Source: Acidobacteriaceae bacterium
Lineage (GTDB): Bacteria; Acidobacteriota; Terriglobia; Bryobacterales; Bryobacteraceae
Direction: 5' to 3'
NCBI GenBank assembly: GCA_019233755.1
Contig: JAFAMD010000052.1
Coordinates: forward strand, 1-64,000
DNA: 64,000 bases
Shown here: piece by piece, positions 20,119-63,635 of the stretch
Layout: every line of letters starts with the position of its first letter
Position numbering within the stretch: position 1 is the first letter of the stretch
Made by a program: the position numbers and the translations under genes
Notes under the pieces: generated by a model
The model's database searches: none
Seen by the model: the letters and a program-made list of their open reading frames with translations, nothing else
What the model was told of the DNA's origin: nothing

Positions 20119-20122
20119 GATC

Positions 20123-28220: not shown

Positions 28221-28365
28221 CGCAAAGTGCGCGGACGCGGCGCCACGTGTCAGTGAGCGAAAAGCTATGTCTTGGCGCGGCGCGACGAGCGCACAGGGTG
28301 TTTTGTGCCCGTTGTGCGCAATACGACAGCGCCCCTGCGCCCGCTTTGCACGGTTCGCCCACTAA

Positions 28366-28384
28366 GCCCCCCGAAATAGGGGGC
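28366..28384. terminator. GC-rich hairpin downstream of the response regulator
   Basis: GCCCCC (28366-28371) pairs with GGGGGC (28379-28384) around a 7-nt loop. There is no T-run, so it would be a poor intrinsic terminator. It may be an mRNA end stabiliser or a leader element for the following gene. Confidence 0.3.
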
Positions 28385-28421
28385 GCGTTGCGCTCGTCCG
28401 GGGTGTTCATCAGCGGCCCGG

Positions 28422-28844: not shown

Positions 28845-28847
28845 CCT

Positions 28848-28861
28848 CCCCCTTAAGGGGG
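28848..28861. repeat. Perfect 14-bp palindrome after the DoxX-like gene
   Basis: CCCCCTTAAGGGGG lies 4 nt after the stop at 28844. It could form a hairpin only with a small loop and no T-run follows, so a role as terminator is weak. A binding site is possible. Confidence 0.35.
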
Positions 28862-28991
28862 GCCTGTCCCGCAGATATATAGGGGGCTGATAGGACTCCA
28901 ACTGGCCTTGGCGGAATTTAGTTCTTGCTCCAGAATCGAAACAGAATTCAAGTGAGTGCGGAACGGACTTCGCAGGAAGGAGAACTAGACA

Positions 28992-30125: not shown

Positions 30126-30631
30126 AGCCGGAGAGCAGTTTCCGCTGAGAGAGATAGCGGAACCTGAGGCCAAAAGAATCTGGCGTTCGCTCAGCATCTT
30201 CGCTTGCGTCATTTCTCCTTCTGGCTTCCCGCGTTCATTGTCTCGGTCACAACCGAGAATTGACTAACATCTCAACCACGTACGTCCACTGCTTCCTCTT
30301 CAAACGGGACGCGGTCCTTGGGCCGAACACAAGAAGGTCAGCGCCGTCCCAAGCGGACTTCCGGGCGGCAAAGCGATGCCTGCGCAATGGTACGCAATGC
30401 CTTGCCGGATGCGATCATTGCGGAGTCTCTTTTTTGGGCCCGGCTCAGTGTTTCTAACCGAGCGGACCTCAATAGGGGTACGACTGAGCCTGGAGTTTCA
30501 GGGCAACGCTTTCATCCTCAAACGTGTAGACTTCGCGCCTGAGCGGCATGTCGGCGACCCAGCGTTCGGCATTATCTCGAGCATAACCACGTCGCCCGTG
30601 TTCGGTAATTAGCTCTTAAGACTTCTTAGTT
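30126..30631. other. 506-bp stretch without a recognised gene
   Basis: The only clear element is the hairpin at 30140-30162 (7-bp stem, 9-nt loop) after the activator gene. Short open frames exist (for example 30376-30612 on the plus strand), but none has a ribosome site or resembles a known protein. It may contain gene remnants. Confidence 0.6.
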
Positions 30632-31279
30632 TTACTTGTCGTCGGGATGGTAATGGTGACCATTGTGTGTGTAACCGGGGTCCGCGGCTAAGTGCAAGGG
30701 CTGCTGCAATTGGAATGTCAGGACGGATTCAGCCGGCACGTGCACCCGGCTACCTCGCGTTGCTGTTTGACCAATTGCACCTGCCGCGCCGCCTGCCAGA
30801 GCGCCGATCCCAGCACCTTTCCCACCTCCTGCCACTGCACCGAGGATAGTCCCGAACAGAGCGCCTCCACCCACAAACTTCGCGGTCCGGCCATTCGCGC
30901 CGACGCCGTCCTTCTGGTCTCCGGTGCGGGTGACATCGTAAGTGGTGACGCTATACCGCTTGCCATGCACCACGATTGCGTCAAGATCGAGCGCCAGCGT
31001 GTGATTTCCGATGTCGCGTACCATCAATTCCACATCAGATCCGCGTGGGATTGCGATCCGGTTGTTGCCATCGAGGACGTCACTGTCCACTTCGGCTGAA
31101 TAGACGCGGCCATTGCCGGTACCCTTGGCATCGATGATGTCATTCGTGCGAACGGAAATAACCGTTCCTGCCGCAATAGTCTCGGCGTGAACGGCGGTGA
31201 CCATGCCCAGAGCGAGGCACAGCCTGAGTAGAACTACTTTAGACAAGGATTTTCTCCAGTATTTGCGAACGGCCCTCAT
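30632..31279 (-). CDS. Secreted protein with a glycine-zipper segment (215 aa)
   Basis: A signal peptide (about 1-32, ending near VHAET) is followed by a beta-rich part (TIAAGTVISVRTNDIIDAKG, IAIPRGSDVELMVRDIG) and a strongly Gly/Ala-rich segment (VGGGALFGTILGAVAGGGKG, then AGIGALAGGAAGAIGQ). It ends in a conserved-looking strand (RVHVPAESVLTFQLQQPLHL) and a His-rich tail (HNGHHYHPDDK). The arrangement is known from many Acidobacteriota proteins of unknown role. The glycine zipper suggests membrane insertion or oligomerisation. The start ATG overlaps the stop of a small upstream open frame (TAATG at 31277-31281). Confidence 0.82.
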   Translation of the reverse strand: MRAVRKYWRKSLSKVVLLRLCLALGMVTAVHAETIAAGTVISVRTNDIIDAKGTGNGRVYSAEVDSDVLDGNNRIAIPRGSDVELMVRDIGNHTLALDLDAIVVHGKRYSVTTYDVTRTGDQKDGVGANGRTAKFVGGGALFGTILGAVAGGGKGAGIGALAGGAAGAIGQTATRGSRVHVPAESVLTFQLQQPLHLAADPGYTHNGHHYHPDDK

Positions 31280-31482
31280 TAGGCCTCCAAAGAAAGAGAG
31301 CCGTTAACCTCGGATCCTGTTGGGAACGCCAACCTGGCAGGAGCGCTCGGCCGGAGTTCTTCTATGTTCAGCGGCGCGTGCGTCGCCGATCTGCTGCTCC
31401 GGCGAGACGTGCCCAACCGAATACTCGCCGGCTGCGCAAACTGCTGAACGGCGAAGACAACGAGCAGGAATAGGATCCTAAT
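31279..31482 (-). CDS. Candidate small secreted protein (67 aa) with non-canonical ATT start
   Basis: An uninterrupted frame reads a typical signal sequence, IRILFLLVVFAVQQFAQPAS, then about 47 polar residues ending EVNGSLSLEA. Its TAA overlaps the ATG of the glycine-zipper gene by one base. No ATG, GTG or TTG lies between an in-frame stop just upstream and the signal sequence. The best start is ATT at 31482 preceded by GGGAG at a good distance, and a CTG further up is also possible. ATT starts are known but rare (infC). It could instead be a remnant of a gene that lost its start. Confidence 0.5.
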   Translation of the reverse strand: MRILFLLVVFAVQQFAQPASIRLGTSRRSSRSATHAPLNIEELRPSAPARLAFPTGSEVNGSLSLEA

Positions 31483-31517
31483 CGTGTCTCCCGCCGTTCT
31501 ACAGATAGCGCAAACTC

Positions 31518-31913
31518 TCAGAAGGAATCCATCCCGTCATCGTCCTGCCTGTGGCTCATTTCTTTGCTGCACTGATCCGCAGCTTCCTGACACACGAGAC
31601 AGAGCGATGCCCATGGAATAGCGGCAAGGCGCTTTGGATGAATCTCTTCTTCGCATTCCGCGCAGATTCCAAATGTGCCCTCCTGGATTCGGAGCAGCGC
31701 GGCGCGAGCATTGCGAAGTTGACTCGATTCGCGGTCGAGTCTAGAGATCTCGAGAGCTCTCTCCGAGGCGCGCTGGATTTCCTCGCCCTGGTCAGGATTC
31801 TGCTCCACCGCTATCGCATCGCGCCGGCCAAGAACATCCTTTAATTCGGCAATCCGTGATTCCAGCTTTGCTTTAAACGTGTTCAAGTCGTAATTACTGG
31901 ATGATGTGTACAT
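31518..31913 (-). CDS. DksA/TraR-type zinc-finger protein (131 aa)
   Basis: The frame is open to 32066, but ATG 31913 fits the family length. A helical N-terminal hairpin (NTFKAKLESRIAELKDVLGRR, then IQRASERALEISRLDRES) leads to a zinc finger with Cys pairs CAEC and CLVC, spaced as in TraR/DksA proteins. It presumably binds RNA polymerase through the secondary channel. The Asp pair at the coiled-coil tip of true DksA is not obvious (QNPDQGEEIQ). The last residues are acidic (RQDDDGMDSF). It is divergent from the ATP synthase operon with about 250 bp between starts. Confidence 0.85.
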   Translation of the reverse strand: MYTSSSNYDLNTFKAKLESRIAELKDVLGRRDAIAVEQNPDQGEEIQRASERALEISRLDRESSQLRNARAALLRIQEGTFGICAECEEEIHPKRLAAIPWASLCLVCQEAADQCSKEMSHRQDDDGMDSF

Positions 31914-32163
31914 CACGCTTCGCATGTCGCAATCCAATGGCCATTGGCTGCGCGTGTGGATCGCGCTGAAAACGAGAGAGGGCACGGCGCTCTTGTCCAA
32001 TAAACACCGAGCCACTTGCTGCCCAGATGCCGTCATTTGACGAGGTGTGATCATTTGCTTCAGCAACGCTGAACTACCTCCGCGTGGCCTCCAACAAACA
32101 AAGGCGTTCAGCGGCTCCTATCGTATGAAGGCAGGAATTCGCCGTAAGTGCGAGAGAAGCTGA

Positions 32164-32892
32164 GTGGAACATCTCTGGATCACAGACATCTTTAATCGCG
32201 TCTTGGCTGGTCCGGCCAACGCACTTCTGAACGCCTTAGGCACTCCGTCGAAGGACCCCGCCCGGCCCTGGACGGATTGGATGGTCTGCGAAATAGTCGT
32301 CGCACTCTTGCTAATCATAATCTGCGCGACGCTTCGACCGCGCTTATCCTTACACAATCCTGGCAAACTGCAACACCTGGCAGAAATCACCTATGATTTC
32401 GTCCACGCTTCCGCTGAGGAAATAGTCGGGCCAAACGGTGTGCGGTATCTGCCCTACTTTGGGGCCCTGTTCCTCTTCATCCTTGCCATGAACCTAATCG
32501 GCTTAATTCCCGGATTCGAATCGCCGACGATGCATACGATGGTGCCGCTCGGATTAGCCGTTGCGACGTTCGTGTTCTATCACTACGCAGGTATTCGTCA
32601 ACAGGGCTTCGCTTACATCAAGCAGTTCCTTGGACCGTTCTGGTGGCTTTCCTGGCTTATGCTGCCGATCGAGGTCATCAGCCAACTTGCGCGACCGTTG
32701 TCGCTCACGGTTCGACTCTTCGCAAATATGTTTGCGGGCGAGCAGGTTTACCTGACCTTCGTCGCCCTCACAAAAATCATTATTCCAGTCATCTTTATTG
32801 GTTTACACTTTTTCGTCGGTTTCTTGCAGGCTTATATTTTCATGTTGCTTGCAATGGTTTACGTCGGAGGAGCCGTCGCGAAAGAGGAATAA
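32164..32892 (+). CDS. atpB: ATP synthase Fo subunit a (242 aa)
   Basis: GTG start at 32164, first gene of the ATP synthase operon. The protein has the usual membrane helices. It carries the essential Arg in the conserved fourth-helix motif (ARPLSLTVRLFANMFAGEQ) and the C-terminal helix pair (FIGLHFFVGFLQAYIFMLL). It forms the ion half-channels against the c-ring. Length is normal. An ATG further downstream is less likely because it would cut the first helix region. Confidence 0.96.
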   Translation: MEHLWITDIFNRVLAGPANALLNALGTPSKDPARPWTDWMVCEIVVALLLIIICATLRPRLSLHNPGKLQHLAEITYDFVHASAEEIVGPNGVRYLPYFGALFLFILAMNLIGLIPGFESPTMHTMVPLGLAVATFVFYHYAGIRQQGFAYIKQFLGPFWWLSWLMLPIEVISQLARPLSLTVRLFANMFAGEQVYLTFVALTKIIIPVIFIGLHFFVGFLQAYIFMLLAMVYVGGAVAKEE

Positions 32893-32979
32893 GAACTCAT
32901 CAGGCCCTCAGTGTGAGCGCCCGGCGTCCCAACGTACGGTGTCGAACCACCTACTGAAAGCAACTTATTAGGAGACACA

Positions 32980-33282
32980 ATGAAAAACAAACTTGTCCTG
33001 CTCGTCATCAGCATGCTTGCTCTGGCGGGTCCTATGCTCGCCCAAGGTGCTGGTGCCGGCAATCCGACTGATGCTAACCGGCGGGCCGCTGCTTACATCG
33101 CAATGGGTATCGCCTCTGGTCTCTGTGGTCTCGGCCAGGGCCGGGCTACCGCGTCCGCAGCGGAAGCCATGGCGCGAAACCCTGGGGCCGTTGCAGCCAT
33201 ACGAGTGGCACTCATCCTTGGTCTGGTCTTAATTGAGTCGCTCGCGTTGTACACGCTTGTAATTACATTTATTGCGCAGTAA
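32980..33282 (+). CDS. atpE: ATP synthase Fo subunit c with N-terminal signal-like extension (100 aa)
   Basis: AGGAG at about 32970 precedes ATG 32980. The two-helix hairpin (MGIASGLCGLGQGRATASAA, polar loop EAMARNP, VALILGLVLIESLALYTLVI) is preceded by about 25 residues resembling a cleavable signal (LVLLVISMLALAGPMLAQ). The ion-binding Glu is in IESLALY. Comparison with known Na+ c-rings (Ilyobacter: Gln32, Glu65, Ser66, Thr67, Tyr70) shows Gln, Glu, Ser and Tyr conserved but Thr replaced by Leu. Sodium use is therefore possible but not settled. Confidence 0.95.
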   Translation: MKNKLVLLVISMLALAGPMLAQGAGAGNPTDANRRAAAYIAMGIASGLCGLGQGRATASAAEAMARNPGAVAAIRVALILGLVLIESLALYTLVITFIAQ

Positions 33283-33297
33283 GAACGCCTAAATCAA

Positions 33298-33750
33298 ATG
33301 ATGCAGTCTACCGTCAATAACCTTCTTGAGCTCTTGATAACGTCGGTACCGACCATCGTCCTCTTTGTCTTCTTGACCGTCTACCTGAATATTATGCTTT
33401 TCAGGCCGATCGGAAAGATTCTCGAGGAGCGCAAGAAGGCTACGGAAGGCGTACGCGAGCTCGCCCAGCGTGCTTACGATGCAGCGAAACAGAAAGCCTC
33501 CGAGTACGACCGTGCTCTGGAGGCTGCCCGCGCGGCAATGCATGCGGAACAGGACGCCGCGCGGCAGAAGTGGTTGGAGGAGCAGGCGGCAGCCATTGCA
33601 AAAGCTCGGGCCGAGGCGGAGGAGCAGATCCGCAACGCCAAACTCGACATCGCTGCCCGGCTGGAGCGAGAACAACCCGCTTTGCAAAAGGCGGCTGAGT
33701 CTCTCAGCGAATCGGTCGTCAACACTTTGCTTGAACGGAGAGCGGCCTGA
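33298..33750 (+). CDS. atpF: ATP synthase Fo subunit b-type, first copy (b', 150 aa)
   Basis: One membrane helix (SVPTIVLFVFLTVYLNIML) followed by a charged coiled coil (residues ~40-150) is the b/b' peripheral-stalk plan. It is followed directly by a second b-type gene whose ATG overlaps its TGA (TGATG at 33748-33752), so the stalk is likely a b/b' heterodimer. The starting ATG at 33298 or the next one at 33301 are both possible. Confidence 0.93.
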   Translation: MMQSTVNNLLELLITSVPTIVLFVFLTVYLNIMLFRPIGKILEERKKATEGVRELAQRAYDAAKQKASEYDRALEAARAAMHAEQDAARQKWLEEQAAAIAKARAEAEEQIRNAKLDIAARLEREQPALQKAAESLSESVVNTLLERRAA

Positions 33751-34316
33751 TGCTCTGCCGTTGTTTTCTATTCGGTGCCCTCCTGCTGGTGATCGCTGGG
33801 TCCAGGGCGGTCGCACAGCAGACCGCCGGTCCCGGACAAGACGCTTCTGAACTCTGGAAAATTGCGAACTTCGTCATCTTCGCCGTTGGTCTTGGTTGGA
33901 TTATCGCTCGCTACGGCCCGCGGTTCTTCAACGCGCGCTCCGCCGATATCCAGAAGGCCATCAAAGACGCAACCGGGCTCAAGATGGATGCTGATCTTCG
34001 CTATTCGGAAATTGACAAGAAGATAGCTGCTCTGGCTGAAGAGATCAAGCGCTTGCGCGGCCAGAATGCGCTCCAAATGGAAGAGCTGCACGGAAACATC
34101 CTTCGTGAGACAGAGCAGCAGATTCAGCACATTGACGAAACCGCAGCCGTCGAAATCGAAGCGTTGCGCGGCGAAGCTATGCAACGAGCGAGACGTCAAA
34201 CCGCCCACCGTTCTTTATCTTTAGCCGAACAGCGCCTGGAGGAACTTCTCGCCGATTCCGAGCCAGACTACCTGTTTCACGAATTCTTAAAGACATTACA
34301 CCGGGGAGTGAATTAG
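33750..34316 (+). CDS. atpF: ATP synthase Fo subunit b, second copy with signal-like N-terminus (188 aa)
   Basis: The N-terminus looks like a cleavable signal (LFGALLLVIAGSRAVAQQ). A membrane helix (ELWKIANFVIFAVGLGWIIA) and a long coiled coil follow. Signal-bearing b subunits next to signal-bearing c subunits are known in some deltaproteobacterial and acidobacterial operons. The start overlaps the b' stop, and the stop directly abuts the delta ATG (TAGATG). Confidence 0.92.
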   Translation: MLCRCFLFGALLLVIAGSRAVAQQTAGPGQDASELWKIANFVIFAVGLGWIIARYGPRFFNARSADIQKAIKDATGLKMDADLRYSEIDKKIAALAEEIKRLRGQNALQMEELHGNILRETEQQIQHIDETAAVEIEALRGEAMQRARRQTAHRSLSLAEQRLEELLADSEPDYLFHEFLKTLHRGVN

Positions 34317-34868
34317 ATGACTGGTGCTTCGGCCTCGCACTACGCTCGGGCATTGGCGGACGCCGTTATGTCGCCTGATTCAGGGTTAGATCCGCGAAAA
34401 GCGATCGAACAGTTGCACGCCGTCGAGCGACTCCTCGCTTCATCGAAGGATTTGCAGCTGGTGCTTGTATCGCCGATGATCAACAAAGCGGAGAAATTCA
34501 ACGTGCTCCGCCGGCTTGCCGGCCAGCTCGAACTGCACGCTACAGTACGAAATTTCTGGCTCCTCGTAGCATCGCACCGGCGCACGGGCGAAATTCGGCG
34601 TATGGTCACGCAGTTCGAGCAAATCGTGAATGAGCGTCTCCGTTTGACTGCTATCGAAGTGACCTCGAGGCGGGAGTTGACCGGCAATCAGAAAGAAGAG
34701 ATCGAACGTGTGCTCGTCGACAAGCTCGGCAAAGCCATTGAAGTCCACTACAAGCTAGATCCTTCTCTTCTGGGCGGCATCAAGGCATTGATCACCTCCA
34801 AGGAATACGACGCAACCATCCGTGGCGGTCTGGAACGGCTCCGGGCCCAATTACTAGCAACCGTTTAA
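34317..34868 (+). CDS. atpH: ATP synthase F1 subunit delta (183 aa)
   Basis: The OSCP/delta pattern is clear: [14 protein letters not shown] at the N-terminus, a helical N-domain, and the C-terminal signature [19 protein letters not shown] ending [14 protein letters not shown]. It connects the peripheral stalk to the top of F1. It begins right after the b stop without a gap and ends 16 nt before the alpha gene, which has its own AAGGAG site. Confidence 0.95.
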
Positions 34869-34884
34869 AAGGAGTAAATCGACG

Positions 34885-36543
34885 ATGGCAGATATCAAAG
34901 CAGACGAGATATCTAAGGTCCTGTTAGCTCAAATAAGTAACTTCGATTCCGCGACTGATGTATCAGAGACGGGCTCCGTCATCAGCGTCGGTGATGGAAT
35001 CGCAAGAATCTATGGCCTGCAGAATGTTATGGCAGGAGAGCTGCTCGATTTCGGGCCGGACAGTGCGGGAATTGCCTTGAATCTCGAACAGGACCAGGTT
35101 GGCGCAGTGCTTCTCGGCAACTTCGGCAGAGTGCGCGAGGGCGCGCAGGTTCGCCGCACCGGGCGCATCATGTCGATTCCGGTCGGCGAAGCCATGATCG
35201 GAAGAGTTGTGAACGCTCTCGGTGAGCCCATAGATGACAAAGGCCCGATCGCAACAAAGGAATTCAGTGATCTCGAGCGACTCGCTCCTGGAGTAGTGGA
35301 TCGCCAGCCGGTGAAAGAACCTCTCCAGACCGGCATCAAAGCCATAGACTCAATGGTTCCTATCGGTCGTGGGCAACGTGAGCTTGTCATAGGCGACCGG
35401 CAGACGGGCAAGACGACGATCGCAATCGACACCATCATCAACCAAAATAATCAGGACGTTATCTGCATCTACATCGCAATCGGACAAAAGCGATCCACAG
35501 TCGCTCAGGTCGTAAAGGCGCTAGAAGAACACGGGGCGATGAAATACACGATTGTTGTTGCTGCTACGGCGTCAGATCCGGCGCCCATGCAATACATCGC
35601 CCCATATGCAGGCTGCGCGATCGGCGAATACTTTAGGGACTCGAAGCGTCACGCTCTTTGCATTTACGACGATCTTTCCAAGCACGCCGCAGCGTACAGA
35701 GAGATCTCGTTGCTGCTCCGCAGGCCGCCCGGGCGTGAAGCGTTTCCGGGGGACGTGTTCTATCTTCACAGCCGGCTGCTTGAACGTGCCGCGAAACTTT
35801 CAGACGAAAAAGGTGGCGGCTCCCTCACTGCCTTGCCGTTTATCGAGACGCAGGCTGGTGATGTTTCTGCGTATATCCCGACCAACGTCATTTCTATCAC
35901 CGACGGCCAGATCTATCTCGAAGGCGACCTCTTCAATTCGAATACGCGTCCGGCGATCAACGTCGGTTTATCCGTAAGTCGGGTCGGCGGCAGCGCTCAA
36001 ATTAAGGCGATGCGATCCGTTGCCGGAACATTACGCCTCGATCTCGCTCAATACCGCGAATTGGCCGCCTTCGCACAGTTCGGCTCAGACCTCGATAAAG
36101 CCTCGCAGGCACAGCTAAATCGCGGTAAGCGGTGGGTCGAGGTCTTAAAGCAAGGCCCCTATTCCCCGATTCCGGTAGAAAAGCAGATCGCAATCATCTT
36201 TGCCGGTGGCCAAGGTTTGTTGGACGATGTCAAGATTCCGGATATTCGTCGCTTCGAGGCAGAACTGTATCGCTATCTTGACGAGAGCAAAGCGCAGTTG
36301 CTGCAATCGATTCGCGAAAAGCGCGTACTTAACGAGGACATCAAGAAGCAGTTGAAGGACGCCATAATCGACTTCAAGCATCGCTTCCAGACTGTCCCCA
36401 GAGGCACTGCCGCATCAGCAACCAACTGGGACGCTCCAACGAAAGACGCAGACCGGCAGAACTCCCCCCAAATTACGAGCTCGAACGGGGCTCATCCGTT
36501 ACACGCGGAGACCGAAACCGAGCACGCCGAAGCCAGGGCTTAG
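34885..36543 (+). CDS. atpA: ATP synthase F1 subunit alpha with a C-terminal tail (552 aa)
   Basis: The nucleotide-binding fold has Walker [14 protein letters not shown], and the alpha signature [17 protein letters not shown] is intact. The core ends near residue 505 ([14 protein letters not shown]). About 45 further residues, rich in Ala, Thr, Asn, His and Glu ([10 protein letters not shown] at the end), exceed the usual length (E. coli alpha 513 aa) and look disordered. The subunit is non-catalytic but needed for nucleotide binding. AAGGAG lies just before ATG 34885. Confidence 0.97.
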
Positions 36544-36547
36544 AACA

Positions 36548-38865
<2,318 letters not shown>

Positions 38866-38872
38866 CGCCAGC

Positions 38873-39136
38873 ATGGCGAAGACGATTCAACTAAAAGTCG
38901 CCACCGCCGAGCGCCTTCTGATAGACAGCGAGGTGTCGGCTGCCGAGTGCCCGTGTACAACCGGCTACATCGGCGTGCTCCCTGGTCACGCGCCTCTCGT
39001 CGGCGTCCTCGGAACTGGCACGCTCACCTACACGCCAACTAGAGGCAATGGAAAATCTCTAAAGTTAAGTGGCGGCTTCATTCAAATCGTAGATAATTGT
39101 GTCCGCGTGCTAGCCGACTCTGCTGAGATCTTATGA
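38873..39136 (+). CDS. atpC: ATP synthase F1 subunit epsilon, N-terminal domain only (87 aa)
   Basis: The beta-sandwich domain is complete (QLKVATAERLLIDSEVSAAE, then GYIGVLPGHAPLVGVLGTG and GGFIQIVDNCVRVLADSAE). The protein stops there, at 87 residues against about 130-140 in typical bacterial epsilon, so the C-terminal two-helix domain that inhibits ATP hydrolysis is absent. The TGA overlaps the ATG of acetate kinase (ATGA, 39133-39136). There is no sign of a frameshift. The short form looks genuine, since the next gene starts in the overlap. Confidence 0.93.
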   Translation: MAKTIQLKVATAERLLIDSEVSAAECPCTTGYIGVLPGHAPLVGVLGTGTLTYTPTRGNGKSLKLSGGFIQIVDNCVRVLADSAEIL

Positions 39137-40377
39137 ACGTACTCGTATTGAACGCCGGCAGTTCGAGCCTAAAGTTCCAGGTCATCGCCACTGATCTTGA
39201 CCGGATCAAGCAGAATGCCGACGAACGCCTGTGTCGCGGCCAGGTCGAACGCATTGGCGGCCAGGCGATCGTTACGCTTCAGAGCGGCCAGGGCGAGCGG
39301 CAGAAATCAGCCGCGCCGCTGCGTGATATCGGTGCGGCGCTTGGTTATGTGCTGCAATGGCTCGCCTCCGCTAACTCCGGAATCCCCAATATCAACAGCA
39401 TCGACGACATACACGCCGTGGGCAATCGCGTTGTGCACGGCGGTGAGTTGTTTTCCGAGTCGGCTCTTATTACTGATCAGGTGTTGAAAGGAATCGAGGA
39501 TTGTATTGACCTCGCTCCGCTGCACAATCCAAGTAATATCAAAGGCATTCTGGCAGCTCGCAAGGTGTTTGGTTCGAAGGTGCCTCAGGTCGCGGTATTC
39601 GATACCGCCTTTTACTCCTCGCTCCCGGACCACGCTTATTTATACGCCATTCCGTACCACCTGTATCAACGGCACCGAATCCGCCGTTATGGGTTTCACG
39701 GCACTTCTCATCGCTATGTCGCGCATCATTATCGTATTTTGCGTCAACTCACTCGCGAGCAGACCAACATCATCACGCTTCATCTTGGCAACGGCTGCTC
39801 TGCAGCGGCCATTCGCGCGGGAAAGCCCATCGATACCTCTATGGGAATGACCCCACTGGAGGGTCTGGTTATGGGCACACGGTCTGGCGACCTCGACCCC
39901 TCCATCGTCAATCTGATCGCAACGAAGGAGGGCCTTTCCACGCAGGAAGTGGACACGCTTCTTAATACTCAGTCGGGCTTGCTTGGCATCTCAGGGCTTT
40001 CGAACGACATGCGTGTCCTCTGTGACGAACTTCGTCAGCATGACGATCGGCGCGTGCGACTGGCCATCGAGATTTTTTGCTGGCGGGCCCGAAAATACAT
40101 CGGTGCCTATCTCGCCTGCATGAATGGCGCCGACGCAATCGTTTTTACCGGCGGCATTGGCGAAAACTCGGCCGCCATCCGCACACGCATCTGCGCCGGT
40201 TTCGAGTGGGCAGGACTGCAGTTAGACGAACAACAGAATCAGAAACTGATCGGGACCCAGGGTGAAATTTCCGCCGCGGGCTCCAGCCTTCGCGCATATG
40301 TCATCCCCACAGACGAAGAACTCCTGATCGCGCGCGACACCGCACGCGTCATTCTGGGCGAACCTCACCCTTCCTGA
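39133..40377 (+). CDS. ackA: Acetate kinase (414 aa)
   Basis: It catalyses acetyl phosphate + ADP <-> acetate + ATP. Both family signatures are present: VLNAGSSSLKFQ at the N-terminus and RRYGFHGTSHRYVA (about residues 175-190). TSMGMTPLEGLVMGTRSGDLDP and VFTGGIGENSAAIR follow in order. It begins inside the epsilon stop codon region, so it is read as the last gene of the ATP synthase operon. The phosphoketolase that supplies acetyl phosphate faces it 100 bp downstream. Confidence 0.97.
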   Translation: MNVLVLNAGSSSLKFQVIATDLDRIKQNADERLCRGQVERIGGQAIVTLQSGQGERQKSAAPLRDIGAALGYVLQWLASANSGIPNINSIDDIHAVGNRVVHGGELFSESALITDQVLKGIEDCIDLAPLHNPSNIKGILAARKVFGSKVPQVAVFDTAFYSSLPDHAYLYAIPYHLYQRHRIRRYGFHGTSHRYVAHHYRILRQLTREQTNIITLHLGNGCSAAAIRAGKPIDTSMGMTPLEGLVMGTRSGDLDPSIVNLIATKEGLSTQEVDTLLNTQSGLLGISGLSNDMRVLCDELRQHDDRRVRLAIEIFCWRARKYIGAYLACMNGADAIVFTGGIGENSAAIRTRICAGFEWAGLQLDEQQNQKLIGTQGEISAAGSSLRAYVIPTDEELLIARDTARVILGEPHPS

Positions 40378-40426
40378 TATTATCGAAAACGCCGAACTCG
40401 AGCCGGAATTTGTAACGCGCTAAAGA

Positions 40427-40454
40427 AGAGGCGGGATCATCTGATCCCGCCTCT
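40427..40454. terminator. Strong two-way hairpin between ackA and xfp
   Basis: AGAGGCGGGATCA (40427-40439) and TGATCCCGCCTCT (40442-40454) are perfect complements and fold with a 4-nt loop and a 12-bp stem. It lies between convergent genes. Read on the minus strand it is followed by a short T-rich stretch (CTTCTTT), so termination is most convincing for xfp. Confidence 0.8.
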
Positions 40455-40477
40455 CACTTGGTTCAGCTTCGGACTAG

Positions 40478-42916
40478 TCAGTAAGGCCACCTCCATCCCG
40501 AAACCTCGGGCAAATCGATACCGTATTTGTAAGCGTGGTTCCGGCATGCGATCTGCATGTTCCGAAACTTCTCTTTTGCGTGCGCGCCGATCTTCTGCAG
40601 CTTTGGTGTCCGGTCGATAGCATCAATAGCCAGGCTGAACCGATCCGTCTCATTGTTGATCGCCAGCTCCATCGGTGTATTGATGTTGCCCTTTTCTTTG
40701 TACCCGCGGACGTGAATGTTGGGGTTACTCTTCCGGCGATACGTCAACTGATGCACCAGGAACGGATATCCGTGGAAGTTAAAGATCACCGGCTTATCCA
40801 CGGTGAAGAGAGATTCGAAATCTTGTTCGGTCAATCCATGTGGATGCTCAGTGCTCGGCTGCAATTTGAAAAGATCCACAACATTCACAAAGCGGATTTT
40901 CAGGTCCGGAAATTCTTCCCGAAGGAGCGCCGTTGCAGCCAATGCCTCTTGTGTAGGGATATCGCCGGCCGAAGCCATCACCACGTCTGGCTCTACGCCC
41001 TGGTCGGTTGAGGCCCAGTCCCAGATCCCGATTCCCTTTGTACAGTGCTCGATCGCGGCATCCATGTTCAGGTACTGCAAATGTAACTGCTTATCGGAGA
41101 CAATCACATTTACATAGTTCTGACTCCTGAGGCAATGATCGGCAACTGATAAGAGGCAATTCACGTCCGGTGGCAGATAGACGCGGGTAACAGCGGCGCT
41201 CTTATTCACAACCACATTCAGGAAACCAGGATCCTGATGTGTAAAGCCGTTGTGGTCCTGCCGCCACACCGTGGATGTGATCAGGAGGTTCAGTGAAGAA
41301 ATATCCTGACGCCAGGAGAGATGGTTGCAGATAGACAGCCACTTGGCGTGCTGATTAAACATAGAGTCGATCACATGGACAAACGCCTCATAGGAGCTGA
41401 TGAACCCGTGCCGTCCTGTTAGCAGATAGCCTTCGAGCATGCCTTCGACGGTATGCTCGCTGAGCATCTCCACAACCCGGCCATCAGTAGCGATTTCCGT
41501 TCCGTCTCTGTCTTCGGGGAAATACTCTGCGATCCAGAATTTCTTGGCAGCCTGATAAACAGCCTGCAATTTGTTTGATGTTGTCTCATCAGGGCCGAAG
41601 ACACGGAAATTATTCATGTTGGCCTTCATAACATCGCGAAGGAAGGTACCCAAAGGCGGCTCATTCTCCACTTCGAGCGTCCCTGGTTTTTCAAACTTCA
41701 GTGCGTAATCCTGGAAATGAGGCAAACGGAGCGCCTTCCTAACAATGCCACCGTTCGCATGAGGGTTAGCGCTCATCCGCCGCAGACCGGTCGGCGCAAT
41801 TGCCTTCAGTTCGGGGACTAGCTTCCCGGTTTCGTCGAATAGCTCCTCCGGCTTTTGAGCGTGCATCCAACCTTCGAGAATTCGAAGCTGTTCCGGATCT
41901 TTCTTGACATCGGTCAAGGGAACTTGGTGCGCGCGCCAGAAGCCCTCCAGCCTATGGCCCTCAACCTCCAGCGGAGCACCCCAGCCTTTAGGAGACCGCA
42001 GTACGATCATCGGCCATCGCGGCCGCGTCGCTACTCCAGTCTCTCTGCACTTGCGCTGGTGTTCGCGAATTTCGAGGACGCAATGCTCAACGGTCGCGGC
42101 CATCGCCTGGTGCATGCTCTCAGGATCAGACCCTTCTACGAAGTACGGCTTCCAGCCGTATCCGCGCAATAGATCCTCCAGTTCCTCATGGCTGATGCGG
42201 GCCAGAAGAGTCGGATTGTTGATCTTGTAACCGTTCAGGTGAAGAACAGGGAGGACGGCGCCATCACGAATCGGATTCAGGAACTTACTGATGTGCCACG
42301 AAGTCGCAAGTGGCCCTGTTTCAGATTCTCCGTCGCCAACGACCGCGGTTACGATTAAGTCAGGGTTATCGAATGCCGCGCCGCAAGCATGAGAGAGCAC
42401 ATATCCCAGTTCTCCGCCCTCGTGAATGGAACCTGGTGTCTCTGGCGTACAATGGCTGCCTATGCCTCCGGGAAACGAGAACTGTTTGAAGAACGCGCAC
42501 ATGCCTTCTTCGTCCTCGCTCTTCTCCGGGTAGATCTCCGAGTAAGTTCCTTCCAGATACACCGGGCCCAGAACGCCCGGCGCACCGTGCCCGGGACCCG
42601 CCATGAAAATCGCATCTAGGTCATATTTCTTAATAAGCCGGTTCAGGTGGATGTAAAGGAACGCCAAGCCGGGACTCGAGCCCCAGTGCCCGAGCAGCCG
42701 GTTCTTAATGTGTTCCGGCTTCAACGGCTGTTTCAGTAACGGGTTGTCCTGCAAGTAGATCATGCCGAGTGCAAGGTACTTGCAGGCCCGCCAATACGCA
42801 TCAATCTTCTTGACATCTGCCGCACTCAGCGGCGCTCCCTGTACCGTGGACCTTGCGACGCCATAGGCGCTTAGATCCGAAGCCACTTGTTCATCTACGA
42901 TCTCTACGCTTGCCAT
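40478..42916 (-). CDS. xfp: Xylulose-5-phosphate/fructose-6-phosphate phosphoketolase (812 aa)
   Basis: This thiamine-diphosphate enzyme cleaves xylulose-5-P (and often fructose-6-P) with phosphate to acetyl phosphate plus glyceraldehyde-3-P (or erythrose-4-P). The N-terminal XFP_N domain has [20 protein letters not shown] and [20 protein letters not shown]. The TPP-binding motif is [17 protein letters not shown], with a Mg/TPP motif near [16 protein letters not shown]-terminal parts include [17 protein letters not shown] and [18 protein letters not shown] lies 11 nt before ATG 42916. It converges on the ATP synthase-ackA operon, which supplies the next step. Confidence 0.97.
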
Positions 42917-43484
42917 CTATATAAACTCCTTTCAGACGCAGCTTTACCTCGATAAATAGTGCATGTAGTTCACCAACGGCGAATTTCAGCGAATTCTTGC
43001 TAAGTTGGTTGATTATTATCTTGACGAAAGGCCGGCAAAGCATTTCGAGCGGCTTAACGACGACGTCCGCAGGCAGATCCTTCCTGCGCCAGTTCACGCC
43101 AATGCTGCGCATTCAGGCGCAGCGAGCTCCCTCTACACCCGCAACCGCTTCCTCGAAACGATGCAGCGGTCCGAGTTCGCGCCCAATCGTGATGCCGCCT
43201 TCAGAAAGGCCTCGGGATCGGGCTTGCCTCGTTCCACGTCCGCGGCGTCCGACTGACGTGAACTAGTAGTTTCACCTATTATTTCTCCTACTGGATGCTT
43301 TTGAGATGTCGCTTGCCACTCCGTTTGGCTTCCCGGTCTACCCTCATCAGAATATGAGCCTCATTCGAATCGATTTGTTGGTTTCACGGCATCTTTCATT
43401 TGAATTGGCGAGTGTCCAACAAAATCAGGTCCACGATGCTCCTATACTCTGACAGGTGACCTGGAAGGTCTGCGCGTCAACAGT
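42917..43484. other. 568-bp stretch upstream of xfp and of the lipoprotein gene
   Basis: It should hold the xfp promoter (minus strand) and the promoter for the 43485 operon. An open frame, about 42980-43256 plus, reads GEFQRILAKLVDYYLDERPA and continues for some 80 residues, but it lacks a convincing start and I recognise no family. It may be a remnant. A weak sigma-54-like match (42960-42975, minus) is not convincing. Confidence 0.5.
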
Positions 43485-44150
43485 ATGAGCCACGCGAAAC
43501 TGGTCGGCTTCGTCTACGTTATCGGCTTTATCGGCGCGGTCGTCGGGCTCGCCGGCTGTGGTGGTAAAGTTCGCTACCCGAGCTATTACGTTCTCAACGT
43601 TCCGCCGCCGGCGCCCCAACCAGCGCCGCCCAAACCCATAACCGGGTCGGCAGCCGTCCGGGAGTTTTCCGCTCCCAGGTTTCTGCGCGCCGGACCGATC
43701 GTATACCGCCAGTCACCCGAGCAACTCGGTTTCTATAACTATGACCGGTGGGCAGTCGATCCCAGGAGTACCGTCACTACTGCATTTCTGGCAACTCTGC
43801 AGTCTCGCGGAGTCTTTCAGTCCGTGCACCTGTTCGACGCTCGCAGCTCATCGGACTATCTGGTCACAGGAACCCTGGATCACTTGGAAGAAGTCGACCA
43901 GGGTAAACAGGTCTTTATTAATGTTGCTGTCTCAGCACAGTTGTCGGACTTGAAAGCCGGCAGTGTGATCTGGAGCGATACTTCTTCCGAGACAGCCAAG
44001 CTAGAAAACCGTGCGATGCCGGGCCTCGTGGCGGGAATGTCTCGTGCAACGAATCAAGCCATTACCCAGCTTGTCTCCTCGATGCAAAACCGGCTCCTCC
44101 AGCTTCAGTCTTCGGCATCGTCCGGCATCGGGGAACTACGGCCTGAATGA
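43485..44150 (+). CDS. PqiC/YmbA-like lipoprotein, transport auxiliary (221 aa)
   Basis: A lipoprotein signal ends in the lipobox GLAGC (Cys25). The mature protein reads YYVLNVPPPAP, VREFSAPRFLRAGPIVYRQS, LGFYNYDRWAVDPRSTVTTA and SSDYLVTGTLDHLEE, which is the pattern of the ABC-type transport auxiliary (PqiC/LptE-like) family that supports MCE lipid transporters. The MCE genes lie 2.5 kb away on the other strand (46632-49619). Its stop overlaps the start of the channel gene (ATGA at 44147-44150). Confidence 0.82.
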   Translation: MSHAKLVGFVYVIGFIGAVVGLAGCGGKVRYPSYYVLNVPPPAPQPAPPKPITGSAAVREFSAPRFLRAGPIVYRQSPEQLGFYNYDRWAVDPRSTVTTAFLATLQSRGVFQSVHLFDARSSSDYLVTGTLDHLEEVDQGKQVFINVAVSAQLSDLKAGSVIWSDTSSETAKLENRAMPGLVAGMSRATNQAITQLVSSMQNRLLQLQSSASSGIGELRPE

Positions 44151-44638
44151 CTCTAAACAATGACGTTATCCGGGAGGTCGCCGCGGCATTGATTTTGGTA
44201 CCGCTCACATTATCCATGCAAAGTGCCGGCATGGCGATCCTCATTGTATGGCAGAGAGCGTATTTTGCGCGCCACACGTTCCACTTTGGCCTGTTTCGTT
44301 GCGGCGAGCTCACTGTGCGATGCACCACCGCCCTGTTGATATTACACACTCTTCAAATTCTGCTCTGGACGGCATTTTACAGATGGAAGTGTTTTCCGGA
44401 CTTAGAGCGAGCCTTTTACTTCTCGGCCACCAGCTACTCGACTGTCGGCTATGGCGACGTGGTCCTTCCGCCGAACTGGCGACTGTTGGGGCCGATCGAA
44501 AGCATTACCGGTGTTCTGATGTGCGGGCTCTCGGCCAGCCTTGTGTTTGCTCTTGTCACGCGGCTCGTCGGGCATGAGGATCGATTTGAGTCTTCGAGAG
44601 ATCCAGCTCAGCTTACCGTGACCGAACCTGGTGTCTAG
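44147..44638 (+). CDS. Two-pore-domain-type potassium channel protein (163 aa)
   Basis: Hydrophobic segments near residues 12-34 and 60-80 and a third near 120-140 surround a pore loop with the K+ selectivity filter in SYSTVGYGDVVLP. This is the Ion_trans_2 pattern. There is no regulatory domain, and the C-terminal tail is short. It starts in the stop of the lipoprotein gene, and the Usp gene begins within 5 nt of its stop, so the three are one transcript. K+ flux control together with Usp suggests a stress setting. Confidence 0.9.
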   Translation: MTLNNDVIREVAAALILVPLTLSMQSAGMAILIVWQRAYFARHTFHFGLFRCGELTVRCTTALLILHTLQILLWTAFYRWKCFPDLERAFYFSATSYSTVGYGDVVLPPNWRLLGPIESITGVLMCGLSASLVFALVTRLVGHEDRFESSRDPAQLTVTEPGV

Positions 44639-44642
44639 CGTC

Positions 44643-45473
44643 ATGTTTGAAAATATTCTCTTCCCGGTAGACTTCTCACCGCGTTGCGTCGCCATCGCTC
44701 CATTTGTAAGCGGAGCCGCTGAAATATTCGGCTCTCGTGTGACGTTGCTACACGTCTGCGATCTCGCCAGCCACAACGGATTTGAGCTCTACGTCCGCAG
44801 TCCACAGGAGATTGCGGAGGAGCACGTGAATGTAGCACAGCGAAGAATCGATTCGTTCCTGGAATCGGAATTTCCACTTTCTACTTGTCCCCGAGTCGTC
44901 TGCTCGGGCGACCCCGGGGAACAGATCGCGAACGCCGCCGTCTCAGGCCGGTTCGATCTAATCGTCATGCCGACTCACGCAGGTCGATTCCGGCGCATGC
45001 TGCTGGGATCCAACACCGCGAAGGTACTCGACAGCGTCGATTGTCCGGTACTGACTACCGGACACTCAGAAACGATCGAACCGAGACCGCTTGAACATCG
45101 GCATTGGCTCTGTGCACTTGCGCTCGACGACGATTCCACGCGCGTGCTCCAGCTAGCTACGCAGGCTGCAACTGCCGCTGGCGCCAAGCTGTCATTGATT
45201 CACGTAATTCAAACGTCCCGGCGGTCGGCAGAGTACGGGAGTGACGAAGAAGAGGCGTTTCGACGCATTCGCGAACTTCAAAAGTGTGTTGACTGCGACG
45301 CAGTCGCTCGTGTAGCTCGAGGGCACGTTAAGGATGCGGTGCTTGAGGCAGCACAGCTTTTCGACGCTGACGTGCTCATCGTCGGAAGGCCCAAATCTGA
45401 ATCGCACGGGCGCATGCGTGAACTCACTTACGGTCTCGTGCGCGACGCCCCATGCCCTGTTATAAGCGTGTAA
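44643..45473 (+). CDS. Tandem universal stress protein (276 aa)
   Basis: The ATG at 44643 fits the family (MFENILFPVDFSPRC). Two Usp domains follow each other: residues ~1-140, ending LIVMPTHAGRFRRMLLGSN and VDCPVLTTG, and ~150-276, ending DVLIVGRPKSESHGRMRELT and APCPVISV. The first domain keeps a G-rich ATP-binding-like stretch, and the second is less typical. Usp proteins are induced in growth arrest and low oxygen. It is the last gene of a three-gene plus-strand unit with the lipoprotein and the channel. Confidence 0.92.
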   Translation: MFENILFPVDFSPRCVAIAPFVSGAAEIFGSRVTLLHVCDLASHNGFELYVRSPQEIAEEHVNVAQRRIDSFLESEFPLSTCPRVVCSGDPGEQIANAAVSGRFDLIVMPTHAGRFRRMLLGSNTAKVLDSVDCPVLTTGHSETIEPRPLEHRHWLCALALDDDSTRVLQLATQAATAAGAKLSLIHVIQTSRRSAEYGSDEEEAFRRIRELQKCVDCDAVARVARGHVKDAVLEAAQLFDADVLIVGRPKSESHGRMRELTYGLVRDAPCPVISV

Positions 45474-45659
45474 TCCCTGCATTTGGAGAAAGGCACGTCG
45501 AAACTAAGTGACTGGGTGAGCTGCACTAGGCAATGGTCAGTTCCTGGTCAGCTTAGTGCTGGCGGCAGCCATCTGGTCATCCGTAACGGGCACGTGAATG
45601 CGGACAGCCAAAAACAGATGACGCGTACATTCGCTCGGACTTGAAATAGCTCTCGTGCG

Positions 45660-60657: not shown

Positions 60658-61512
60658 GTGAACGAGATCTTATGCGGTAATTTCGCAGGTCGCCCGTCAC
60701 TATTCGAGCCGTCGCAAACCATCAGAGTCATTAACTGGAACATTAATCGAGGGCTCCGCTTGACGGAGATCCTTGAATTCCTCAAATCTCAGTCACCTGA
60801 CCTTCTGATCCTTCAAGAGGTCGATCTGAACGCGCATCGGACTCGGTATCTGAACGTTGCAGAGGAACTTGCCCGCAATCTTGCAATGAACTACGCTTTC
60901 GGGCGTGAATTTCAGGAACTGGCAGAGGGGTCACGCGCCGCGGCGGCTTATCATGGGCAAGCTACATTGTCTCGATGGGATGTGGTGAACCCTCGCGTGC
61001 TGCGGTTCCGGCGGCAGTCCAATTTTTGGCGTCCGCGATGGTTTGTCCCATCCACGAAGCCTTTCCAAAAGCGTCTTGGCGGGCGTATTGCGCTTGTGAC
61101 AGATATAGGTTTGACGCCAACACGGTTGACCGTCTACAACGTCCACCTGGAGAGCCGAGGAAACAACGATCTACGGCGCTCTCAGTTACAGGAGATACTG
61201 GAGAACGCCACCAAAAGCAGTACACAGGGGCCGTGCATAGTAGCTGGCGATCTGAATTTTGATGTGTCGAGCGGCGGTGCGCTGTGTGCAATTGAAGGCG
61301 TTGGCTTTCGAAGTGTACTCGGGACACGCAGGCCGCACACAACAGCGGGAAATGGAATGTTTTGGCGTCCGCGCGCAATTGATTGGACGTTCGTGTCAGG
61401 ACCGCTGGAGGTCGCATCGGCGCGGGTACATTCGGACGTTGACGCGTCCGATCACTATCCGATCTCGGTTACGCTGCGAGTTTCTCGGAGTACGCATCAG
61501 ATCGGCGCGTAG
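60658..61512 (+). CDS. Endonuclease/exonuclease/phosphatase-family hydrolase (284 aa)
   Basis: A GTG at 60658 (or 60655) gives the protein without the overlap that a longer frame would need. The EEP fold shows IRVINWNINRGLRLTEILEF, LLILQEVDLNAHRTRYLNVA, VYNVHLESRGNND, CIVAGDLNFD, AIDWTFVSGPL and DVDASDHYPISV, the residues of the metal-dependent phosphodiester hydrolase centre. Relatives include sphingomyelinase-like enzymes and inositol phosphatases. It directly follows the fusion gene (7 nt) and may act on the same head-group pathway. The 3' end overlaps glgX by 16 nt, tail to tail. Confidence 0.9.
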   Translation: MNEILCGNFAGRPSLFEPSQTIRVINWNINRGLRLTEILEFLKSQSPDLLILQEVDLNAHRTRYLNVAEELARNLAMNYAFGREFQELAEGSRAAAAYHGQATLSRWDVVNPRVLRFRRQSNFWRPRWFVPSTKPFQKRLGGRIALVTDIGLTPTRLTVYNVHLESRGNNDLRRSQLQEILENATKSSTQGPCIVAGDLNFDVSSGGALCAIEGVGFRSVLGTRRPHTTAGNGMFWRPRAIDWTFVSGPLEVASARVHSDVDASDHYPISVTLRVSRSTHQIGA

Positions 61513-63635
61513 AGGACTACGACCGAGCGCGGGCCAACGGAGTACTTCGAGTCTGTTACGGGAGGCGCGTTTTGCCATTCAACGATGTCATGCGGCGAGT
61601 CCAGCGAAGTGTCGATCCAACGCCGCCACAGGGTTCCGCCGTTGTGAGTCAGAGTGGGCAATTCAAACTCAAGCGGCTCCCAATACGCATTCAAGATGAC
61701 GTGGCCAATTTGCTTTTCGTCCTTTAACTCCGTACTGAAGGCAATACTGTGTGAGCAACTTCTCCAATCGGGCTGAAAGACCCTGATCCCGTGCCAGGCT
61801 TTGTTCGACTCACTAAGGAGCTGGTTGAGGCTTCGGTGATGGCTCTCGGCGTGGACATCGCGCAAAAGGCGTCGCACGATGAGAAGCTTGACGAAGCGAT
61901 GCACATCGGCGTGTTTTGAAAGGAGCGTCCAATCAAACCAACTGGTTTCATTGTCCTGGCAATAAGCGTTATTGTTGCCCAGTTGCGTGCGGCGGACTTC
62001 GTCGCCCATCAGGATCATGGGCATGCCTAAAGAAAGCATCGCGCAAGTCAAGAAATTCTTGATCTGGCGGTTTCGAAGTTTCTCCACAACAGGATCATCC
62101 GTCGGACCTTCAACCCCGCAGTTCCAACTCCGATTGTCATTACAGCCGTCTCGATTGCCCTCGCCATTCGCATCATTGCGTTTTTCGTTATAAGACACGA
62201 GGTCGTTCAGCGTGAATCCGTCGTGACAAGTTACAAAGTTGACGCTCTCTTCGGGTTCGCGTTCCTTGTAACCGTAGATCTGAGGGCTGCCGAGGAGTCG
62301 GTCGGCCATTTTGCCCACGAAACCCTCGTCGCCGCGAAAAAAGCTGCGGACATCATCGCGGAAGCGCCCGTTCCACTCCCGCCAGCTATCGCCAACAAAG
62401 CTGCCGACCTGATACAGGCCGCCTGCATCCCACGCCTCCGCGATCATTTTCGTGCCCGCAAGTGCGGGGTCGGAGTCAATATCCCAAAGCACGGGCGGAT
62501 TCGACATTGGCTGGCCCGAAGAGTCGCGAGCAAGAATGGATGCGAGATCAAAACGAAAGCCATCGACATGCATTTCCTGCACCCAGTAATGGAGGCTGTC
62601 GAGTATCATGCGCCGGACGATCGGATGATTGGCGTTGAGCGTATTTCCCGTCCCGCTGTAATTGGCGTAGCGGGATCGGTCTTGTTCCAGTATGTAATAG
62701 CAGCTGTTATCGAGGCCGCGGAAGCTTAAGGTTGGGCCGTTGTGGTCACCTTCGGCCGTGTGATTGTAAACAACGTCCAAAATGACTTCGATGCCGACGC
62801 GGTGCAAAGCTTTCACCATGTCGCGAAACTCATCCACCGGTCCGGCCGGATCCTGGCGCGAGCTGTAAGCACGGTGCGGGGCAAAGAAAGAGACAGGCGC
62901 GTAGCCCCAATAGTTGACTTGGCCGGCGGGCGCATCCTGCGCATCAAATTGAAAGATCGGCAGAAGCTCGACCGCCGTGATGCCGAGGTCCTGCAGGTAT
63001 GGAATCTTCTGAATTAAGCCAGCGTAGGTGCCGCGCAGATCTTCGGCGAGACCGGAACTGGGATCGCGCGTGAAGCCTCGCACGTGCAGCTCATAGATGA
63101 TGGTTCGCGCGCATGGCCGCTTCGGAGGCGCATCGCGCGCCCAGTCAAACACGGCATCACGTTCCCAATCGTAAGCCTGAGTGTCTACGACAACACTCTT
63201 CATCGCAGCCGCGGTATTCTCCTCATTTACACGAATCGCGTCCCGCCTGTATTTCTTCGGCACAACGACACTTCGGCCGTACGGATCGAGGAGCACTTTC
63301 GTGGGATCAAAGCGCATGCCATTTGCCGGGTCCCAGGGGCCGTACACTCGATAACCGTAAATTTGACCGGGCTGCACTCCCGGCACAAAAGCGTGCCAGT
63401 AGTGATAAGTGAGGCTTGTTGCAGGATCGAGCGAGATGATGCGAGCCGGGCGTGCATCGTCCTCGCGATCGAACAGCAGCAATTCGACGGCAGATGCGCC
63501 ACGCGAGAAGATGCTGAAATTGACGCCGTCGTGCAGGATTCTGGTGCCTAGGGGATAGGTCCGGCCGGCGGTGTGGGGACGAAGATCCGGGGCGGTTAGA
63601 CTTTGGACGGCAGCACGATCAAGGATGGTACTCAT
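61497..63635 (-). CDS. glgX: Glycogen debranching enzyme GlgX (712 aa)
   Basis: It hydrolyses alpha-1,6 branches of limit dextrins. The N-terminal CBM48-like part (YPLGTRILHDGVNFSIFSRG, VYGPWDPANGMRFDPTKVLL) is followed by the GH13 barrel with ELHVRGFT, DVVYNHTAEGD, the nucleophile Asp in VDGFRFDLAS, the acid Glu in MIAEAWDAGG and the third Asp in FVTCHDGFTLNDLVSYNEK. The C-terminal domain is all-beta. The gene is preceded on the minus strand by the transketolase/phosphoglucomutase scar, so a sugar operon was probably shortened here. Confidence 0.96.
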   Translation of the reverse strand: MSTILDRAAVQSLTAPDLRPHTAGRTYPLGTRILHDGVNFSIFSRGASAVELLLFDREDDARPARIISLDPATSLTYHYWHAFVPGVQPGQIYGYRVYGPWDPANGMRFDPTKVLLDPYGRSVVVPKKYRRDAIRVNEENTAAAMKSVVVDTQAYDWERDAVFDWARDAPPKRPCARTIIYELHVRGFTRDPSSGLAEDLRGTYAGLIQKIPYLQDLGITAVELLPIFQFDAQDAPAGQVNYWGYAPVSFFAPHRAYSSRQDPAGPVDEFRDMVKALHRVGIEVILDVVYNHTAEGDHNGPTLSFRGLDNSCYYILEQDRSRYANYSGTGNTLNANHPIVRRMILDSLHYWVQEMHVDGFRFDLASILARDSSGQPMSNPPVLWDIDSDPALAGTKMIAEAWDAGGLYQVGSFVGDSWREWNGRFRDDVRSFFRGDEGFVGKMADRLLGSPQIYGYKEREPEESVNFVTCHDGFTLNDLVSYNEKRNDANGEGNRDGCNDNRSWNCGVEGPTDDPVVEKLRNRQIKNFLTCAMLSLGMPMILMGDEVRRTQLGNNNAYCQDNETSWFDWTLLSKHADVHRFVKLLIVRRLLRDVHAESHHRSLNQLLSESNKAWHGIRVFQPDWRSCSHSIAFSTELKDEKQIGHVILNAYWEPLEFELPTLTHNGGTLWRRWIDTSLDSPHDIVEWQNAPPVTDSKYSVGPRSVVVLYAPI

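Follow-up and report, generated by a model that had tools for sequence, protein, structure and literature searches.

A 64,000-nucleotide stretch of DNA from an Acidobacteriaceae bacterium (contig JAFAMD010000052.1, positions 1 to 64,000; hereafter the window, contig C5 of a 4.95-Mb draft genome in 71 contigs) carries a nine-gene F-type ATP synthase (F1Fo) operon that runs directly into ackA, the gene for acetate kinase, with the phosphoketolase gene xfp convergent behind it. This atp operon is the second complete F1Fo of its genome, and among the loci compared the window would be the single example of an ordinary F1Fo recruited and joined to acetate kinase. As an arrangement of genes it is an uncommon variant and rests on good evidence, but it does not amount to a new kind of system. 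As to its function, we give an even chance to the proposal that this is a dedicated F1Fo, working mainly as an ATP-driven ion pump and fed by fermentation of storage sugar through phosphoketolase (Xfp) and acetate kinase (AckA). The best support for such a functional link is independent of the window and comes from the N-ATPases, another class of second F-type ATPase, whose genes often lie near xfp.

The F1Fo operon and its join to ackA

The nine atp genes occupy positions 32164-39136, all on the forward strand and in the order B-E-F'-F-H-A-G-D-C. Intergenic gaps are 0 to 16 nt, apart from 87 nt between atpB and atpE and a 1-nt overlap of atpF' and atpF, and the start of ackA overlaps the stop codon of atpC (ATGA). 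An earlier, sequence-only reading of this DNA had described the row, the ATGA junction and the convergent xfp, and the open reading frames (ORFs) bear it out:

32164..32892, + strand: atpB, Fo subunit a, 242 aa, GTG start (TIGR01131, 137 bits, above cut-off)
32980..33282, + strand: atpE, Fo subunit c, 100 aa (family match below cut-off)
33298..33750, + strand: atpF', Fo subunit b' (family match below cut-off)
33750..34316, + strand: atpF, Fo subunit b (family match below cut-off)
34317..34868, + strand: atpH, F1 subunit delta (TIGR01145, 87 bits, above cut-off)
34885..36543, + strand: atpA, F1 subunit alpha (TIGR00962, 839 bits, above cut-off)
36548..37408, + strand: atpG, F1 subunit gamma (TIGR01146, 305 bits, above cut-off)
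37420..38865, + strand: atpD, F1 subunit beta (TIGR01039, 811 bits, above cut-off)
38873..39136, + strand: atpC, F1 subunit epsilon, 87 aa, N-terminal domain only (TIGR01216 match below cut-off)
39133..40377, + strand: ackA, acetate kinase (TIGR00016, 450 bits against a cut-off of 293.4)
40427..40454, no strand: inverted repeat between ackA and xfp
40478..42916, - strand: xfp, phosphoketolase, 812 aa, convergent with ackA (XFP_N, XFP and XFP_C)

Subunits alpha, beta, gamma, delta and a all score above their curated cut-offs, as expected of an F-type ATP synthase. Subunits c, b, b' and epsilon give clear matches that stay under every listed NCBIfam cut-off, epsilon likely because its second domain is absent, and these scores do not argue against F-type identity. 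The TIGR00016 score identifies the acetate kinase, and the presence of all three XFP domains the phosphoketolase. An atpI-like ORF ahead of atpB is not among the window ORFs; the nearest gene upstream points the other way and encodes a dksA/traR zinc finger. The possibility that the operon encodes an N-ATPase was rejected, as all five alternate-F1F0 models score below cut-off, atpH is present and the operon groups with the F-type enzymes of its genus.

The sequence-only reading had asked whether the genome holds a second F1Fo, and it does: a housekeeping set is split between contigs C20 (atpB and atpE) and C27 (atpF'FHAGDC). Identity between the extra and housekeeping subunits is 67% for a, 88% for c, 50% for b', 46% for b, 49% for delta, 78% for alpha, 70% for gamma, 84% for beta and 50% for epsilon. 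In a tree of concatenated alpha, gamma and beta (21 rows), the extra copy of the window joins that of a second genome of the genus, G010, with support of 100/100, and the two fall inside the genus, beside the housekeeping copies of G002 and G003 (100/98). The housekeeping copies of the window genome and G010 pair elsewhere in the genus (100/99), apart from the extra copies. Thus the operon probably arose by duplication or transfer inside the genus, and import from a distant lineage is unsupported. A comparison of the window with G010 gives dN/dS values of 0.01-0.27 for the nine atp genes and ackA, at dS of 0.49-1.37. All nine atp genes therefore look to be under purifying selection, which argues that the ATPase itself has been retained.

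The operon is rare even among close relatives. Of 17 genomes of the genus, 3 have an atpB at least 80% identical to that of the window, and in two of them (the window genome and G010) the operon is intact; identity is 92% in G010 and 80% over 205 residues, with one stop, in G004. Three of the 17 (G003, G013, G015) gave no atpB match at all, and the other matches listed in a 237-genome family search reach at most 69%. G010 (L078/L202) has the full operon with an 88-aa epsilon followed by ackA, with the ATGA overlap kept. In G004 (C557, L198 7370-8447) the extra atpB runs from its start straight into the end of atpD, with some 5.7 kb missing, while ackA and xfp stay; another contig of that genome (L077) begins with the last 15 nt of a short atpC, showing the ATGA at the contig edge, and continues into ackA and a convergent xfp. 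The atpB-atpD junction is either a deletion or a misassembly.

Across 71 AckA loci, atp genes lie upstream of ackA in one (L078), with the 15-nt atpC trace of L077 in addition, in keeping with the sequence-only view that this fusion is not the textbook arrangement. The arrangement did not prove to be common and unrelated to xfp, an outcome which that reading had named as its own refutation. An xfp falls within the retrieved stretch at 21 of the 71 loci, and within 3 kb of ackA at 18 of the 33 whose AckA identity is at least 57%, all 18 from Acidobacteria or its subgroups. The proximity of ackA and xfp that the sequence-only reading drew upon is thus present in the window but common without an atp operon: ackA and xfp are a common pair, and it is the atpC-ackA fusion that is rare. 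Most simply, the atp operon would have been added ahead of ackA and have replaced its leader. In the window and L078, atpC coding sequence fills the 80 nt that precede ackA, which, without a leader of its own, probably depends on atp transcription. At 20 other loci, up to 3 kb upstream of ackA held no atp match, and their leaders are by eye unlike that of the window.

From the spacing and the ATGA overlap, atpB through ackA would be expected to be cotranscribed. The inverted repeat at 40427-40454 is possibly a terminator shared by ackA and xfp. It corresponds to the shared hairpin of the sequence-only reading, and the repeat itself is there, but it has no T run and is absent from the sites returned by the terminator scan; a similar repeat in the relative L077 has paired changes (by eye). 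Scans of positions 30000-46000 for promoter-like and terminator-like sites gave 3 and 12, where 7.0 and 14.9 were expected. The sigma-54 -24/-12 pattern matched 30 times against 32 expected, with no match directly upstream of atpB, and Rfam at gathering thresholds returned zero matches. Four genes with sigma-54 activator domains (at 14072, 16676, 20093 and 28992) do lie in a 16-kb part of the window, 14072-30125, though -24/-12 sites do not exceed chance there.

Phosphoketolase at N-ATPase loci

The N-ATPases are presumed ion pumps in two papers (PMC11738941; PMC5376962). A search with TIGR03305 at E <= 1e-200 found them in 10 genomes out of 399 sampled from the class and in 6 out of 396 sampled from the phylum. 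Three genomes are common to both, and the 13 from these even samples, together with G006 and G012, make 15 acidobacterial loci. The loci are not all independent, as three come from the genus g104 and two from the genus of the window. Flanks of 7 to 20 kb, depending on contig ends, were retrieved around ATPase loci (L236, an 8.2-kb contig, has little flank), and xfp distances were derived from these stretches and a whole-genome xfp search.

An xfp stands directly next to the N-ATPase atpD at 5 of the 15 loci (G027, G109, G006, G012, G712). It is within 10 kb at 10 of them (adding G189, G024, G405, G804 and G369) and within 15 kb at 11 (adding G408), where copy number would lead one to expect about 0.16. 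As for the remaining four, G085 retains 36 codons of an xfp beside atpD, the xfp of G043 lies elsewhere, and the whole-genome search gave no xfp above cut-off in G232 and G776. In G712 (C34, L263 6561-15958), ackA, xfp and the N-ATPase genes from beta onward form a row on one strand with about 20-33 nt between matches, an independent clustering of the three functions. At the G006 locus, an ackA match appears about 6 kb past xfp. Matches to glucan phosphorylase, pgm, glgX, polyphosphate kinase 2 (PPK2) or aldolase accompany 9 of the 15 loci. At the housekeeping atp loci of 11 of the same genomes, by contrast, xfp, ackA and glucan, PPK2 or aldolase genes were found at none; this comparison covers 11 of 12 genomes (the G012 contig was too short) and excludes G712, G776 and G804. 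Nor did this gene set turn up in 11 additional stretches taken from the genus, including three pieces of the window genome itself.

Plasmids from outside the phylum offer a further sample, 10 regions hand-picked from 40 listed among 108 records with at least 80% cover, nine of them annotated; these nine are recognized as N-ATPase regions by their gene order. On the Polymorphobacter plasmid p29334-1 (L265) an N-ATPase-type operon lies beside xfp, rpiA, pgi, tal, gnd, ackA, rpe, zwf and tkt. Near the ATPase, a Sphingobium plasmid region has pta-ackA, and a Hymenobacter plasmid region has pgm and glucan phosphorylase. Over the nine annotated regions, xfp occurs in one, ackA in two (one of them the region with xfp), glucan phosphorylase with pgm in one, and aldolase only in two. 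Searches in a library of open-licence papers listed no report that links a second ATPase to phosphoketolase or acetate kinase, which is weak evidence that none exists.

Gene context, the proposed pump and its alternatives

The window contig fits the same glucan theme, with glgX, a pgm-like match and glgP on it, and the genome's other xfp sits in a glgP-glgX-xfp row on C44 (L214 1950-9261, G000:C44). The K+ channel-like and universal stress protein (Usp) genes, which the sequence-only reading had placed near the operon, are confirmed by their Pfam matches:

43485..44150, + strand: ABC transport auxiliary lipoprotein-like gene (PF03886)
44147..44638, + strand: K+ channel-like protein (PF07885)
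44631..45473, + strand: universal stress protein with two Usp stretches (PF00582)
61497..63635, - strand: glgX, glycogen debranching enzyme (TIGR02100, 730 bits)
about 63808-64065 in window numbering: pgm-like match beside glgX (basis: a 50% match in L255)
L044 98-2686, beyond the window on the same contig: glgP (TIGR02093, 1058 bits)

In G010 (L212) a homologue of the lipoprotein-like gene at 43485-44150 is kept near xfp, with kch and usp. On contig C252 of that genome (L213 425-4504), a NiFe hydrogenase-like ORF set, recognized by eye from translations, lies beside the 3' end of xfp. Elsewhere in the window (21326-27606), two adjacent long ORFs of 1083 and 1009 aa share near-identical 16-mers (23913/26954 and 24337/27378) that recur 3041 bp apart, a sign of a possible tandem duplication.

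What can be seen directly is the gene content and order, the overlap, the second copy, the selection, the epsilon truncation and the recurring clusters of F-type ATPase and xfp. What reactions Xfp, AckA and F1Fo carry out is established knowledge, and the account that we prefer builds on it. A housekeeping-type F1Fo paralogue, kept as a nine-gene operon, would have been joined to ackA, which would ensure joint production. Glucan reserves would be converted to sugar phosphates by the products of glgX, pgm and glgP on the same contig; Xfp would turn fructose 6-phosphate or xylulose 5-phosphate into acetyl phosphate, from which AckA would make acetate and ATP with ADP; and the extra F1Fo would spend this ATP on ion export, holding the membrane potential when respiration stalls. 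The running direction, the ion and the condition of use, like the cotranscription, are what we infer here. A wider idea, to which we give slightly less than an even chance, is that bacteria have repeatedly built fermentation-powered ion pumps by setting a spare rotary ATPase, either an N-ATPase or an F1Fo copy without the epsilon domain, beside xfp and ackA, with stored glucan paying for the anoxic membrane potential.

The short epsilon may count in favour of such a pump. At 87 aa in the window and 88 aa in the extra copy of G010, compared with 141 aa in the window genome's own housekeeping enzyme, it aligns to positions 1-82 of the 130-position TIGR01216 model, and the regulatory C-terminal domain is absent. 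Its end, at residue 87, is close to those of engineered truncations (90-94); a cut at residues 90-94 raised ATPase activity in three species, and a cut near that point raised ATPase and pumping in Escherichia coli and two Bacillus-type enzymes, according to a review (PMC6692558). Among 19 housekeeping epsilons, the genome's own included, 18 are about 133-141 aa long and one, that of G009, is 87 aa. This exception weakens the truncation as a hallmark of the extra operon. An 87-aa epsilon chain also occurs in PDB 8yh8, which we take to be engineered.

Several observations weigh against the proposed pump. The epsilon of G009 (C139, L218 3142-3405) leaves no second-domain remnant in any frame and belongs to the only F1Fo detected there (one gamma, in a search of 60 genomes including the window's own, 8 of which gave no gamma match), so that truncation is no mark of a pump. 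Nor are its effects uniform: the same truncation lowers ATPase and pumping in Bacillus subtilis (PMC6692558) and is without significant effect in Paracoccus denitrificans (PMC9317440), and with such mixed effects across species the running direction of the window enzyme is a reasoned guess. The ion-site region of subunit c (GLGQG, LIESLALY) is identical in the extra and housekeeping copies, which implies no switch of ion. The genome holds another ackA and another xfp, and G010 has cytochrome-like genes 3' of ackA (by eye) and its xfp on other contigs, not adjoining ackA. In G004, where atpB runs into atpD while ackA and xfp stay, the pump is dispensable or the assembly wrong. The N-ATPase evidence bears on the window by analogy, and it has its own blemishes: xfp is cut by a contig end in G012 and G804, lies in two frames in G804 and stops after 637 codons in G189, and four of the nine annotated plasmid regions hold none of the sugar or acetate genes counted. 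Finally, the housekeeping atp genes of G009 have a Usp match in their vicinity too, which makes Usp proximity weak evidence. The energy module of the sequence-only reading, which included xfp, thus survives in part: xfp is often near N-ATPases and once in a row with ackA, but in the window it stands outside the atp transcript, and it is apart from ackA in G010. The role in survival without respiration that the same reading proposed would be a conjecture.

The ion site deserves a word of its own. The c subunit of the window has the Gln of GLGQG, the Glu-Ser pair and a Tyr four residues on, residues inspected by way of what we take to be the Na+ ligand motif; a chloroplast c chain (22vl) shows GQG and ESLTIY at the aligned places. 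With c subunits 88% identical and the same site residues, an ion switch between the two F1Fo enzymes finds no support.

The same likeness of the two enzymes speaks for a spare ATP synthase that runs in the normal direction under another regulator, for example at another pH or oxygen level, with ackA joined to it since both make ATP. Alpha and beta remain 78% and 84% identical to their housekeeping counterparts, the ion site of c is the same, G009 manages with an equally short epsilon in its sole detected F1Fo, and truncated epsilon also raised ATP synthesis in two of the enzymes reviewed (PMC6692558). However, a spare synthase leaves unexplained why xfp and glucan genes gather at the presumed-pump N-ATPases and at 0 of the 11 housekeeping atp loci, and we consider it unlikely, though a serious contender. 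A different account begins from the missing leader of ackA: recombination may have placed ackA under a duplicated atp promoter, so that the gain lay in acetate kinase dosage and the ATPase was a passenger. G004, which keeps ackA and xfp with most of the operon gone, would agree with such a capture, but apparent purifying selection on the nine atp genes (dN/dS and dS as above) shows an ATPase that is kept, and we hold the capture to be distinctly improbable. That the operon or its junction with ackA is a chimera of assembly might be suspected from a draft in 71 contigs and from the odd junction in G004. Such an artefact is barely credible, as two genomes assembled separately share the atpC-ackA junction, the short epsilon and the ATGA, and a third has the last 15 nt of atpC.

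Relation to known systems

What a second rotary ATPase does for the bacteria that have one is an unsettled question, for which the recurrent link to phosphoketolase, acetate kinase and enzymes of glycogen and polyphosphate metabolism suggests a concrete and testable fuel. The window provides a clean case, with two paralogous F1Fo per cell, one of them without the epsilon regulatory domain and tied to a source of ATP from substrate-level phosphorylation. The pattern around the N-ATPases is broader and stronger than the arrangement first proposed.

In subunit set and order the window operon agrees with the canonical F1Fo operon (B-E-F-H-A-G-D-C), from which it differs in an epsilon without C-terminal domain and in the join to ackA. 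Paired b' and b genes are shared with the acidobacterial F1Fo loci as described in PMC4154653; those loci are split between c and b, as is the genome's own housekeeping copy, whereas the window operon is unsplit, a second copy and without an atpI-like ORF. N-ATPases are likewise second F-type ATPases in the phylum, near xfp and in places near ackA and glucan genes, but they have the order beta-epsilon-X-X-a-c-b-alpha-gamma and no separate delta, whereas the window has atpH and the canonical order. A possible parallel is the low-oxygen-activated (lxa) locus of Burkholderia cenocepacia, in which a Usp gene has been studied. With loci of the Xfp and AckA acetate pathway the window shares an xfp within 3 kb of ackA, as at 18 of the 33 close AckA loci; it differs in that its ackA is the tenth gene of an atp operon.

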